Assembly: GCF_030848565.1 (NCBI RefSeq)
Contig: NZ_JAVDDV010000007.1
Span: forward strand, 62,001 to 126,000
Direction: 5' to 3'
Source of the DNA: Natronolimnohabitans sp. A-GB9
Lineage (GTDB): Archaea > Halobacteriota > Halobacteria > Halobacteriales > Natrialbaceae
DNA length: 64,000 nt
Position numbers and translations under genes: made by a program
Shown here: piece after piece, positions 25,701 to 55,852 of the stretch
How the letters are laid out: each line of letters opens with the position of its first letter
How positions within the stretch are numbered: the stretch's first letter is position 1
Notes under the pieces: model-generated
Databases searched by the model: none
Told to the model about the DNA's origin: nothing
What the model saw: the letters and a program-made list of their open reading frames with translations, nothing else

Positions 25701-26972
25701 TTAGAATCCGCCGCCGAAGAGTAACTCGAGGAAGTCCTGGACGGCAAACACCGCCAGTACGATCGCCAGCAGGACAAGCACCGCGTTGACGATGTTCAGC
25801 CAGCGCGAGTTCCGGTGTTCGCCCATCGTCTCACGATCGTTGACCGCCCAGAACAGCAGGGCAGCCGCAAGCGGCAGCCCGAAGATCCCGTTGTACGTCG
25901 GGAAGAGGATGACCATGTCGACGACCGACAGGTCGAGGACGCTGCTGATCAGCGGCGACGCGAAGCCGGTTGCCGTGCCAGCGACGAACAGGAGCTTGAA
26001 GAGGCGGTCGCTTTGTCCGACTTCGGTTCCCATCGCTTCGGGGATGATGTACGCCGGCGTCCACATGATCGGGATGATGCTGTTGAACGCCGCGGCCGTA
26101 ACCCCGACGACGAACAACACCATGGCCCACGTGCCGAGGATCTCGACGAGTGCTTCACCCGGCATAATGAACGTCGTCACCTCGGTGTAGCCCATCGGTC
26201 GCAACAGCGCGGCCGCGACGATCAGGATCGCGATCGTCGTCACGCCGCCGACGGCGTAGCCGACCGCCAGGTCCTTGCGAGCGGTCGAGAGGTCGCTTTT
26301 GTCGGTCCACCCCTTCTTTTCGACGAGTCGCGACTCGAGGAAGAAGTTCGGCCACAGCGCGGTCGTCCCCAACACGCCCGCTGCGATCGCCAGCGTGCCG
26401 AGAGTATCGGGCGTCGGCACGAACCCGAGCGCGAGCGAGGTCGTCTCGGGATTGCTCGGCAAGGCGACGACGATGTAGACGATCATCAGCGACAGCATCA
26501 TCGCGATCATCAGATACTCGACGCGCTCGTAGTTCAGCAGGCCGATCACGATGGCGAGGACGGTCGCGCCCACGGCGACCGGCTGCCACGAGACGGCACC
26601 GCCAGTCAGAAACGAGACGCCGGCGCCGACGGCAGCGACCAGTCCAAGCGTCCACGCCACACAGCCGATCGAGAGAAACACCGCGATCGCCGTCGCCGGA
26701 CCACGGCCGAGTTTGTGGCGGACGAACCGCATCAACGGCGTTCCGTGGATGCCCAGCCGAGCGCTCATGTCCTGGGCCATAAAGCCAAGCAGCGCGGCAC
26801 CAATGACGGCCCACAACAGCGTGTAGCCGTGCATCACGCCGGCCTGACTGGCGATAAACACCGAACCGGAGCCGAAGTAACTGGCGACCATGACGAACGC
26901 CAGTCCGTACTCTTCGACTACCGCGGGTATTTCGCGAGCGGTCCACTTCGTGAATCCATCGGTTACACTCAT
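25701..26972 (-). CDS. Divergent Nramp-family transporter
   Basis: 423 residues from MSVTDGFTKWTAREIPAVVEE with about eleven membrane helices. The Nramp fold is visible in the first helix block ASYFGSGSVFIASQAGVMHG and in TTALWPNFFLESRLV. The two metal-binding motifs are altered: the usual DPGN is GSGS and the usual MPHN is LWPN. Classical Mn/Fe chemistry is therefore unlikely, and another ion is plausible. A TATA-like ATAGTATATCC lies near 27100 on this strand; if used it gives a leader of about 100 bases. The intergenic 26973-27265 holds no other gene that I can support. Confidence 0.82.
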   Translation of the reverse strand: MSVTDGFTKWTAREIPAVVEEYGLAFVMVASYFGSGSVFIASQAGVMHGYTLLWAVIGAALLGFMAQDMSARLGIHGTPLMRFVRHKLGRGPATAIAVFLSIGCVAWTLGLVAAVGAGVSFLTGGAVSWQPVAVGATVLAIVIGLLNYERVEYLMIAMMLSLMIVYIVVALPSNPETTSLALGFVPTPDTLGTLAIAAGVLGTTALWPNFFLESRLVEKKGWTDKSDLSTARKDLAVGYAVGGVTTIAILIVAAALLRPMGYTEVTTFIMPGEALVEILGTWAMVLFVVGVTAAAFNSIIPIMWTPAYIIPEAMGTEVGQSDRLFKLLFVAGTATGFASPLISSVLDLSVVDMVILFPTYNGIFGLPLAAALLFWAVNDRETMGEHRNSRWLNIVNAVLVLLAIVLAVFAVQDFLELLFGGGF

Positions 26973-28521: not shown

Positions 28522-28830
28522 TTACCCGTCGTCGTCTTCGTCTTCGTCGTCGTTCTCGTCCGGTGCGTGGTCGATTTCCTGGTCGTCGTCTCCCTCGTCG
28601 TCCGCTTCGATATCGTCCTCGGGTTCGTCCTCGTCGTCCTCCTCGTCATCGTCTACTTCGTCGTCCTCATCGTCGTCGGGCTCCGGTTCTTCCTCGGGTT
28701 CGTCCTCTGGCTCTTCCTCGGGCTCGTCGTCTTCGTCAGCACAGCCGGCGAGCAGAGCTGCCGCTCCCACAACCCCTACACCCTCGAGAATGCGTCGACG
28801 GGTGATCTGATCGATCCCGTGCATATTCAT
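28522..28830 (-). CDS. Acidic low-complexity lipoprotein
   Basis: 102 residues. After the start MNMHGIDQITRRRILEGV comes a Tat-like twin-arginine signal and the lipobox ALLAGCADED (Cys30). The remaining 70 residues are almost only Asp, Glu, Pro and a few others, so it has no stable domain. It would be a cell-surface anchored polyanion. The coding strand is rich in GAC and GAG, which makes the opposite strand look like a Val- or Ser-rich ORF; those are shadows. Confidence 0.66.
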   Translation of the reverse strand: MNMHGIDQITRRRILEGVGVVGAAALLAGCADEDDEPEEEPEDEPEEEPEPDDDEDDEVDDDEEDDEDEPEDDIEADDEGDDDQEIDHAPDENDDEDEDDDG

Positions 28831-28909
28831 CGTAAAACCTTCACCGTTGAAAGTGATGTACCAGCAACTGACGGCACGTCTCGAAACGAAATCCGTGGAC
28901 GCGATGAGT

Positions 28910-29977
28910 TCATCCGAACCGGTCCAGCCCCGACTGCCGACGTCGTCGTCCGTCCGGATCCGCGACCCAGGGCGTTCGCCGGTCGCGCTCGGCCTCGAGG
29001 TCGATCTCCTCGCCCGGATGCGGATCGACTGTCGGCTCGTACCCGCCACAAGAGGGGGCACACTCGGCGCTCGCATCGACCACCCGTCCCTTCCACGAGC
29101 AGTAGGGCAGGGTCGCGCCGCTCGAGTCGTCGACCCGGCAGGCCCCACACTCCGGAAGGCCGTCGGTACGCCACCCCTTCCCATAGGCCCGCTCGGCGAG
29201 CCGACGGCGCGCCCGTTCCTTTTCGACCGGATCGACGACGGCGATCTCGGTCCGCCCGGGATGGTACTCGAGCGGTTCGATACCGGGTTCGTCGACCGAC
29301 AGCGGTTCGGGTTCGCGGATCACCTCGACCTCGAGAGCACCGCCCGTCGAGCCCGTCGTCTCGTCGCGATGGACGCGCCAGACGCCGACCTCGTTCGGAA
29401 TGCGGTGCAGGTGTGCCCGCGTGACGTAGCTCTCGGTCGCGAGGACGACCTCGTCGACCAGCCCGAGGCTGGCGTCGGTCCGCAGCTGGGCCTCGAGGTC
29501 GCCCGGACGGCCCAGATCGGGCTTGTTCTCGATCCCGACGAGCCGGCCGTACCAGTCGGGGTAGCGGGCGACCTGCCGGACGTACGCGCGACCGTTGCGG
29601 TACTCGCGCTCGAAGAAGCCGATCTCGCAGGCTCGCTCCATCGCCCGTCGGGCCCGATCGGGATGGCAGTCGAAGGCGTCTTTCCAGTAGCGGGCCCGAC
29701 CGGCCCCGACGTCGGCTTCGATCGCCGCGTCCGGAATCGTCTCGCTCGTGATGGCCGCGCGGTCGTCGAATCCGGGTCCGGGCTCGAGACAGACGACGTC
29801 GAGGATTCGGCCGCCGGGGTCGGCCACGCTCGCCCCAAGCTGGCGGGCGACGACGTCGTCGCTGCGGGCCTCGAGGTGGGCACACAACTCGAGTTCGAAC
29901 GCGAACTCCGACACGGACGGAGCGAGGGGCCGGCTCGAGAAAAGGTCGTCGGGCTGGGGAACGTTCGGCTCTTTCAC
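28910..29977 (-). CDS. DUF5787-like protein, PD-(D/E)XK-type with Cys cluster
   Basis: 355 residues from GTG 29977 (VKEPNVPQPDDLFSS). The sequence resembles the haloarchaeal DUF5787 family. WYGRLVGIENKPDLGRPGD has an E-N-K and is followed by LEAQLRTDASLGLVDEVVLA, a typical PD-(D/E)XK nuclease ending (my inference). A cluster of five Cys near residues 270-310 (ECGACR, YCSWK, ECAPSC) could hold Fe-S or zinc. It diverges from an arsenate-reductase-like gene, with palindromic CGCTATATAGCG between them. Its stop overlaps no neighbour. Confidence 0.62.
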   Translation of the reverse strand: MKEPNVPQPDDLFSSRPLAPSVSEFAFELELCAHLEARSDDVVARQLGASVADPGGRILDVVCLEPGPGFDDRAAITSETIPDAAIEADVGAGRARYWKDAFDCHPDRARRAMERACEIGFFEREYRNGRAYVRQVARYPDWYGRLVGIENKPDLGRPGDLEAQLRTDASLGLVDEVVLATESYVTRAHLHRIPNEVGVWRVHRDETTGSTGGALEVEVIREPEPLSVDEPGIEPLEYHPGRTEIAVVDPVEKERARRRLAERAYGKGWRTDGLPECGACRVDDSSGATLPYCSWKGRVVDASAECAPSCGGYEPTVDPHPGEEIDLEAERDRRTPWVADPDGRRRRQSGLDRFG

Positions 29978-54304: not shown

Positions 54305-55852
54305 TCAGGCCAGGAAGACGTGTCGCGGACGGTCCTCGAGGATGTCGCGACCGAACTCGACGGCGTCGGAGAAGGCATCGCTGCGGAAAAACTGCATCGC
54401 GTCCTCGCGGGAGTCCCAGCGACTGGCGATGAACATGTCGTTTTCGTCCTCACGGTTTACCAGCAGGTCGGTCTTGCGGTGACCGTCCATGTCGGCGAGC
54501 AAGGCGGCGGCGTCGTCGAAGGTGTCCGTAAAGTCCCCGCGGTGCTCGGGTTTGACCGTGTAGAACATGCCCATCGTCCCCCAAGAGTCGTCGTCATCGT
54601 CGCCGGCTTGCCGGACGATCTCGGGGAGGTCGGCGAGGAAGCCGGCGGCCGTGTTCGCGGCGCGCTCGGTGTCCCAGAGACTGACGACTGCGGCCTCGCT
54701 GTCGTCGTTTCGCGGTTCGTACACCGCGGTCTTGACGTGGGTGTCGTAGTGGTCGAAGTTCGTCCGCAGGCCCTCGACTTCCTCGAACAGTTCGTCGGCG
54801 TCGGCCGCCGAGTAGAGGACAACCGCATGGATATCCTCGCCGTGTGGCTGGCCCGCGTAGACGTCCATGTCGGCGAGTTCGCTACGGATGTCCGACTCGT
54901 CGTCGTCACCGTGTGGCCCGCCGGAATCGCCGTGGCCGCCGTGGCCGCCATCGTCACCGTGTGGGTGGCCACTCGAGTCCGAGTCGCCGTGTGGGTGGCC
55001 ACCGGCATCGCCGTGTGGGTGGCCACCGGCATCGCCGTGTGGGTGGCCGCTTTCGTCGCCGCCCTCCTGTGGAACCGGCTCGCCGGCGAGGAACGCCGGG
55101 AGGTTCTCGGGCGGGAACCGTCGGGCCGAGAGGAACCGGCCGAACTCGGCGAAACGGGAACTCGACGGGTCGAACCGCATCTCATAGAGCAGGTCCTTGA
55201 CGTCGGTCGGATCGTCGCCGAACAGGGTAACACCCCACTCGAAGTCATCTAACCCGATACTGCCGGAGATGATCTGAGTGACGCGACCGGCGTACTCCTT
55301 GCCGATCTCGCCGTGGCTGGCGAGGTGGTCGGCACGCTCGTCGAAGGGGAGTTCGTACCAGTTGTGTTCCGGCCCGCGTCGCTTGTCCATCGGGTAGAAG
55401 CTGAGGAATTCGCTGTCCGGAATGTTCGGTTTGAGTCGCGTCTCGATATACCGGGCCATCCCGGTGTCTTCGACTTCCTCGCCTTCCTCGAAGAACTCCT
55501 GGGACATGTATCCCGAGACCTCCGTCACCGAGAGGTAGGAGTCGGACCGCTCGGTAAAGGCCGCAAGCTCCGTCTGTTCGAATCGGCGCTCGAGGGCGTC
55601 GATCTCCTCGAGCGTCGGCCGCAGGTGCAAAAGCAGCAGGTCGGCCTTGTGGCCGAGCACCGAGAACGTCGCCGAGTCGCCCTCGTCGGCGTCGGTCACG
55701 TTCTCGGCGGCGGAGAGGAACTCGATACCCTCTTCGATCGCCCGCTCGCGACGCCGCTTGGGTGCATCGCGCCAGGCGTCCCAGTCGATCGACCGGAAGT
55801 CGTGCAGGACGTACCAGCCCTCTTCGGTCTGTGGTGGCTGCCGTCGTTCCAT
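54305..55852 (-). CDS. Chlorite-dismutase-like heme protein fused to ABM domains
   Basis: 515 residues. Residues about 10-245 form the chlorite-dismutase/coproheme-decarboxylase fold: SGYMSQEFFEEGEE, FYPMDKRRGPEHNWYELPF and the proximal His in DHLASHGEIGKEYAGR (His180). A His/Gly/Asp linker (about 269-315) repeats GGHPHGDA. The last 190 residues contain two ABM-like ferredoxin domains. The order is that of haloarchaeal PitA, probably acting in haem synthesis or as a peroxidase. The linker could bind metal. Confidence 0.86.
   Translation of the reverse strand: MERRQPPQTEEGWYVLHDFRSIDWDAWRDAPKRRRERAIEEGIEFLSAAENVTDADEGDSATFSVLGHKADLLLLHLRPTLEEIDALERRFEQTELAAFTERSDSYLSVTEVSGYMSQEFFEEGEEVEDTGMARYIETRLKPNIPDSEFLSFYPMDKRRGPEHNWYELPFDERADHLASHGEIGKEYAGRVTQIISGSIGLDDFEWGVTLFGDDPTDVKDLLYEMRFDPSSSRFAEFGRFLSARRFPPENLPAFLAGEPVPQEGGDESGHPHGDAGGHPHGDAGGHPHGDSDSSGHPHGDDGGHGGHGDSGGPHGDDDESDIRSELADMDVYAGQPHGEDIHAVVLYSAADADELFEEVEGLRTNFDHYDTHVKTAVYEPRNDDSEAAVVSLWDTERAANTAAGFLADLPEIVRQAGDDDDDSWGTMGMFYTVKPEHRGDFTDTFDDAAALLADMDGHRKTDLLVNREDENDMFIASRWDSREDAMQFFRSDAFSDAVEFGRDILEDRPRHVFLA

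Follow-up and report, generated by a model that had tools for sequence, protein, structure and literature searches.

A supported clade of Nramp-related proteins with a GSGS/LWPN site, its genes often beside a TauE/SafE permease gene

What does a transporter carry that has the fold of the Nramp proteins but lacks the residues with which these hold manganese and iron? The question is raised by a gene in the window, i.e., the stretch of 64,000 nucleotides from Natronolimnohabitans sp. A-GB9 (contig NZ_JAVDDV010000007.1, positions 62,001 to 126,000) that was analyzed here. Four features of the gene are relevant:

25701 to 26972, minus strand: coding sequence for a 423-residue Nramp-related LeuT-fold transporter of the GSGS (GxGS) clade, as judged by open reading frame, Pfam, alignment, model and tree.
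26862 to 26873, minus strand: codons for G34-S35-G36-S37 (GSGS) in unwound TM1, in place of canonical DPGN, as judged by alignments and a model break at 33-34.
26640 to 26645, minus strand: codons for G110-L111 in TM3, with L111 at the Glu site of canonical and NRMT rows, as judged by alignment.
26346 to 26366, minus strand: codons for T203-T204-A205-L206-W207-P208-N209 in unwound TM6, opposite canonical A-T-V-M-P-H-N, as judged by alignments and a model break at 205-206.

The reading frame runs on the minus strand from an ATG at 26972 exactly to the end of the stop codon at 25701. Five Natronococcus/Natrialbaceae relatives (75-78% identity) align from residue 1 and thereby support this start. 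The protein matches PF01566 (Nramp) at 185.7 bits (cut-off 29.8) over residues 42-390. Among the NCBIfam models, Nramp_1 scores 50.9 bits (cut-off 50) and the MntH model 105 bits (cut-off 430). The best phmmer match among PDB sequences is EleNRMT (2e-19), and ScaDMT and DraNramp are also among the nearest. Proteins of this group carry the public names 'divalent metal cation transporter' or 'Nramp family divalent metal transporter', as in matches on haloarchaeal plasmids.

An AlphaFold2 model built from a 47-row alignment (pLDDT 86.7, pTM 0.87) predicts a LeuT/Nramp fold with TM1 broken at residues 33-34 and TM6 at residues 205-206, i.e., at the positions of both motifs, and together with the Pfam score it places the protein in the broad PF01566 family. 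The model superimposes on DraNramp (8e6i) with a Z score of 49.3 (rmsd 2.1, 379 aligned residues), followed by B. fragilis Nramp (Z 47.0), EleNRMT (Z 46.8), the integrative YcsG model 9a52 (Z 42.9) and NRAT (8ont; Z 41.0). An earlier note on this DNA had held that the Nramp fold is otherwise kept, and the Pfam score and the similarity of the model to DraNramp bear this out. The best structures outside the family are KimA, ApcT, BasC and AdiC with Z scores of about 29-30. The three amino-acid carriers of the APC superfamily among them (ApcT, BasC, AdiC; identity 10-12% in the best rows) likewise have the LeuT fold but differ from the window protein in that its sole Pfam match is PF01566. We assume that its Gly-rich break in TM1 resembles the motif of these carriers.

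With canonical Slc11/Nramp proteins (MntH; DraNramp, ScaDMT) the window protein shares the fold and a gapless alignment of TM6. It differs by lacking the Asp and Asn of TM1, the Met and His of TM6 and the acidic residues of TM3, and in that genes of its clade are often linked to TauE/SafE. Phmmer places FGSGS without gaps on MDPGN of ScaDMT, and MAFFT alignment with canonical and NRMT rows sets G34-S35-G36-S37 on D-P-G-N and, in TM6, T203 on Ala, L206 on Met, P208 on His and N209 on Asn. Hhalign against a canonical profile also yields a gapless TM6; its local alignment starts at residue 43, so that the register of TM1 rests on MAFFT and phmmer. The five canonical site positions of TM1 and TM6, i.e., D, N, A, M and H, are thus G, S, T, L and P in the window protein, and positions 101, 108 and 111 of TM3, which are E, D and E in five canonical rows, are S, T and L. 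Instead of the canonical pattern DxxN-A/CxxM (MPH), the protein carries GxxS-TxxL, with the four positions retained in 62-63 of 63 clade rows. It had been noted earlier that DPGN and MPHN are absent and that GSGS and LWPN stand there; phmmer, MAFFT and the 63-row clade alignment, as well as hhalign for TM6, fully agree with this. A mere shift of the motifs was considered and rejected: none of the Asp, Asn, Met and His ligands is displaced, and Pro alone lies one position later.

G34, G36, S37, L111, T204, W207 and N209 are identical in all 63 clade rows (window protein counted), L206 and P208 in 62 and S35 in 61 of the 63 distinct rows; E213 and D68 are invariant in clade rows as well. Since identity to the window protein falls to 50% within a 40-row alignment, motifs that are fixed or nearly so are not there by chance, and the alignments indicate that GSGS/LWPN is a conserved site and not decay. 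A decayed gene or an oddity of a single genome is ruled out by this conservation in 63 rows. At the position of L111, Glu is found in 5/5 canonical and 4/4 NRMT rows. Note that position 110, which is Gly in the window protein, carries Glu in 24/63 clade rows, adjacent to the site of the ancestral Glu, and this leaves room for a cation in the clade.

Because the Asp and Asn of TM1 and the Met and His of TM6 are gone and neutral residues stand for E, D and E in TM3, a substrate other than manganese or iron is likely, and import of these two metals by the window protein is not expected. Manganese or another transition metal might be held by different ligands, namely E213, N209, S37 and backbone carbonyls. 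We consider this quite unlikely given the absence of the canonical side-chain ligands and of the acidic TM3 residues, even though N209 is matched by Asn in 3/5 canonical rows. The inventory of the genome can be read both ways. None of its six PF01566 loci has DPGN (three are GSGS, one GPGT, one GPAT and one a broken GAGS type), which would leave room for a manganese importer among them; on the other hand, two ZnuA-type binding-protein (ABC) genes are available, and these could meet the metal need. In favor of a transition metal, YcsG, annotated as a 5-oxoproline importer, has been reported as a manganese importer in B. subtilis (in the relevant part of PMC10448178). Furthermore, two plasmid copies of the clade have metal-related genes at a distance of 3-6 kb: in Natronorubrum daqingense, CbtA/CbtB together with cation/proton antiporter subunits (3-6 kb upstream), and in Haladaptatus caseinilyticus, a heavy-metal P-type ATPase gene (about 4.7 kb upstream).

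A maximum-likelihood tree was calculated from 51 of 74 rows, five long-branch or odd rows having been dropped and the GSGS, GPGT and GPAT rows thinned. GSGS and GAGS proteins form one clade with a support of 100/100, within which the GSGS side (99/96) includes two rows with the GAGS motif. The window protein belongs here by its position in the supported clade, by GSGS/GAGS in TM1 and by an aromatic residue plus PN in TM6. Canonical proteins (100/100), NRMT (two rows, 100/100) and GPGT proteins (99/96) are separate groups, and the GxGS clade is placed next to the GPGT clade, weakly (86/87). The AU test rejected neither a joint clade of GxGS with NRMT (p 0.167) nor one with canonical proteins (p 0.188). 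The phylogeny with NRMT that the earlier note had called for thus sets canonical and NRMT rows apart from the GxGS clade and is, by the AU test, compatible with either sisterhood.

The relation to NRMT is relevant because the suspected change of substrate had been likened to Nramp-related groups that moved to magnesium or aluminium. While a different substrate is indeed likely with the ligands absent, the parallel does not hold: where PMC8806188 describes the patterns, NRMT is DxxG-TxxA/T and NRAT DxxN-AxxT, and both keep the Asp of TM1. The plant aluminium transporter NRAT (8ont) is alike in its Nramp fold and differs in this residue. NRMT (EleNRMT, 7qia/7qji) and the window protein have T203 in common, the only position of the NRMT pattern found in GxxS-TxxL, and canonical MPH is absent in both. 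That a hydrated alkaline-earth ion (magnesium or calcium) passes through a widened neutral site, as in NRMT and with even fewer ligands, is nevertheless unlikely in our view. EleNRMT is the best PDB sequence match, its structure closely fits the model, and the AU test allows the joint clade; besides, a gene for a sodium:calcium antiporter precedes one copy, that of Halocatena salina, where it lies directly upstream together with one for a cation:proton antiporter. These points are countered by the Asp of TM1 and the Glu of TM3, which all four NRMT rows keep and the window protein lacks, and by the separate position of the NRMT rows in the tree. Moreover, an Rfam search at gathering score gave no match, and hence no M-box, in the window or at three further loci (L048, L054, L072), while the upstream M-box magnesium riboswitch was used to define NrmT (as described in part of PMC4072509). 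Finally, a dedicated magnesium uptake system seems less needed in brines, as these are usually rich in magnesium.

The words 'replaced' and 'moved' in the earlier description are apt insofar as the motifs differ. They imply loss from a canonical ancestor, which is called into question by a preprint (PMC12873925, in its part on this point): in its tree, the Nramp-related proteins are paraphyletic with respect to canonical ones, and the DPGN/MPH site is derived, i.e., gained later. If the site was gained by canonical Nramps, the window protein need never have lost it, and 'replaced' may reverse the polarity of the change. Absence of DPGN/MPH is what the same part of that preprint leads one to expect for Nramp-related proteins and is already known. 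New is the 100/100 clade with the GSGS/LWPN site, whose genes often lie beside a TauE/SafE permease gene; in the CC-licensed papers on Nramp, TauE and halophiles that we searched, we found no account of it.

Gene neighborhoods were compared for proteins with at least 1.2 kb of flanking sequence on both sides, and a TauE gene was taken as a neighbor within 1.5 kb. Matches shorter than about 330 residues, identical or contained proteins and those with short flanks were excluded, the latter comprising 4/61 GSGS proteins, three of them with TauE. A TauE/SafE gene lies near 37/57 GSGS and 6/10 GAGS proteins, i.e., 43/67 in total, or 40/67 without a weak 54-bit match at 1.3 kb (L016) and two more distant, divergently oriented genes (L042, L047). 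In 33 of the 37 GSGS cases it is located downstream on the same strand, and the two partners scanned belong to PF01925. No such neighbor was detected for 52 flanked proteins of other types (37 GPGT, 8 GPAT, 3 GPGS, 2 GPAS, one unclassed and one canonical; no NRMT) with a TauE profile that was built from the partner genes and that remote TauE proteins could thus escape. Fisher's exact test gives 3e-15 for this linkage, with relatedness of the proteins ignored. The identity matrices of the Nramp-type and TauE proteins are correlated (r 0.547, with none of 2000 permutations as high) for 43 pairs that were picked separately (genes within 500 bases, TauE above 150 bits), a correlation that shared organism history alone could produce. 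One TauE partner was compared with PDB sequences and matched none of them, not even at an E value of 10.

The copy in the window, like its two GSGS paralogues, has no TauE/SafE neighbor; all three are among the 20 of 57 flanked GSGS proteins without one, which include most of the window protein's branch. The pair is annotated in three of four plasmid regions with GSGS-like genes, and the fourth, of the window protein's branch, lacks it. A Pfam scan of ten neighboring genes at nine loci, eight of them without TauE, revealed no common theme: HAD, Nmad3, CitG, IS1595 transposase, fumarase-type lyase, nitroreductase, DUF7115, M24 peptidase and AIRS were found, and one gene remained unmatched. The lack of TauE on most of this branch, together with three GSGS paralogues in one genome, would fit a protein that has lost transport and acts as a sensor or receptor, or an adjacency in the relatives that reflects shared regulation and not a shared substrate. 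We judge this highly improbable, as the protein is full-length and its pore motifs are conserved across archaea and bacteria. Among the three TauE genes of this genome, none is clearly orthologous to the GSGS partners; their best identities are 88%, reached with a GAGS partner, 49%, and 82%, reached with the divergent L042 gene. The broken GAGS-type gene (contig C12:88024-88702) consists of two pieces in different frames with about the middle third missing, and the TauE/SafE gene that follows it is open across its full length.

A different neighborhood characterizes the GPGT proteins, which resemble the window protein in that the Asp of TM1 is absent (Gly in 40/40 rows) and in that the YcsG model has the Nramp fold; they differ as a separate clade whose genes lie beside hyuAB- or LamB/YcsF-type genes, not beside TauE/SafE. 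Genes similar to hyuA/hyuB (hydantoinase/oxoprolinase) neighbor 22/37 of them, including the one of this genome. For 19 of them the neighbor is hyuA, in the same orientation and at most 214 bases away; three of the 22 are weaker cases with about 40% identity, two of them on the opposite strand. In Haloferax mediterranei the GPGT gene is found beside annotated hyuA/hyuB-like genes, and genes for LamB/YcsF (PxpA family) lie beside 3/5 bacterial GPGT loci whose neighbors were scanned. In this genome, the GPGT-type gene is situated on the window's contig but outside the window, at 190417-191586 (L087:8663-10093), directly upstream of hyuA and hyuB. PxpT and YcsG are probably of the GPGT type, as judged by gene context. 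Since the GxGS clade is placed beside the GPGT clade, if weakly, and both lack the Asp of TM1, a PxpT-like carrier of 5-oxoproline or hydantoin comes to mind. We hold this to be very improbable for the window protein, which falls outside the GPGT clade and has LWPN in TM6 instead of VGYN or VPYN; hyuA/hyuB-like neighbors were found for none of the 57 GSGS proteins. A carrier of the PxpT type for 5-oxoproline is thus ruled against by clade position and gene context.

Taken together, we tentatively favor, by analogy, a carrier with the LeuT fold whose substrate is a small solute other than a metal, most likely an organic or sulfur-containing anion or zwitterion. The protein would be a secondary transporter of an Nramp-related group, having PF01566 without the canonical Slc11 site. 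In its center, the Gly/Ser-rich break of TM1 (GSGS) would face the TM6 break TTALWPN, a site devoid of acidic and thioether ligands, and transport would proceed by alternating access as in other LeuT-fold carriers. Gly-rich TM1 breaks hold the carboxylates of substrates in amino-acid members of the APC superfamily. In the window protein, exposed backbone and Ser/Thr groups could hold the small solute in the site. The TauE/SafE protein, where present, may move the same solute or its anionic product in the opposite direction. Gene context is a hint at a non-metal solute, not a proof. The window copy without TauE and the cation-transport genes near some copies argue against such a solute, as do the manganese import reported for YcsG, the Glu at TM3 position 110 in part of the clade and the invariant E213 and D68. 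In the parts of the literature concerned, TSUP/TauE proteins have been suggested to move sulfur-containing organic compounds (PMC8873060) and are poorly characterized (PMC8873060, PMC5840216). PxpT, which belongs to the NRAMP family, is needed for growth with 5-oxoproline; in the part of PMC13274462 concerned, the authors do not exclude that it transports metal.

A more far-reaching version of the favored non-metal reading, which we regard as rather doubtful, is that an Nramp-fold family of salt-adapted microbes has crossed domains and carries a non-metal anion, such as a sulfonate or small organic acid, with TauE/SafE as a two-permease module for uptake and export or for exchange. If this were true, and with the Hyu/LamB-YcsF-linked clade added, much of the Nramp-related group would be carriers of organic solutes and not of metals. 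To our knowledge, the substrate has been measured for few Nramp-related proteins. The fixed, uncharged site and the recurrent partner gene of the clade offer a testable route to a non-metal substrate. They also bear on a possible origin of the Nramp metal site from carriers of non-metal substrates, an idea raised in PMC4072509, part of which describes an outgroup that stands between Nramps and LeuT-fold carriers of substrates other than metals.

The spread of the clade was surveyed in one genome per species of 84,980 species with query peptides from the window protein, a procedure that reaches near relatives only. It gave 48 loci at 56-78% identity, 32 in archaeal and 16 in bacterial records. 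The archaeal records are haloarchaea, one being labelled merely Euryarchaeota, and the bacterial ones comprise Balneola, Balneolaceae, Gracilimonas, Fodinibius, Rhodohalobacter, Salinibacteraceae, Rhodothermaceae, other Bacteroidetes, Gemmatimonadota and Lujinxingia. The names suggest that most carriers come from saline or soda habitats. In the phylum of the window protein, 9/392 sampled genomes score above 590 bits, with the next score at 199. In the class of the Balneola record, 18/244 sampled genomes exceed 500 bits, at least six of them already known from the loci, and the next score is 132 once a further fragment belonging to one of these 18 is set aside. In the phylum of the Gemmatimonadales record, 1/150 genomes was found, which is that record itself, and the next score is 158. 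Such sparse occurrence at 56-62% identity across domains suggests horizontal transfer between them.

Some observations were made in passing. In Haladaptatus pallidirubidus (NZ_CP085301.1), three PF01566 genes have second copies, each displaced by the same 551,849 bases, which suggests either duplication of a very large block or an artefact of the assembly. Within the window, a frame on the minus strand at 28522-29184, whose product is probably a lipoprotein, has at its end a long tail of repeats rich in Asp and Glu (repeat rows 28527-28737). Further along, also on the minus strand, a 515-residue open reading frame at 54305-55852 has a His-rich linker of repeated HPHGDAGG-like units and is reminiscent of two-domain chlorite-dismutase-like (PitA) proteins.
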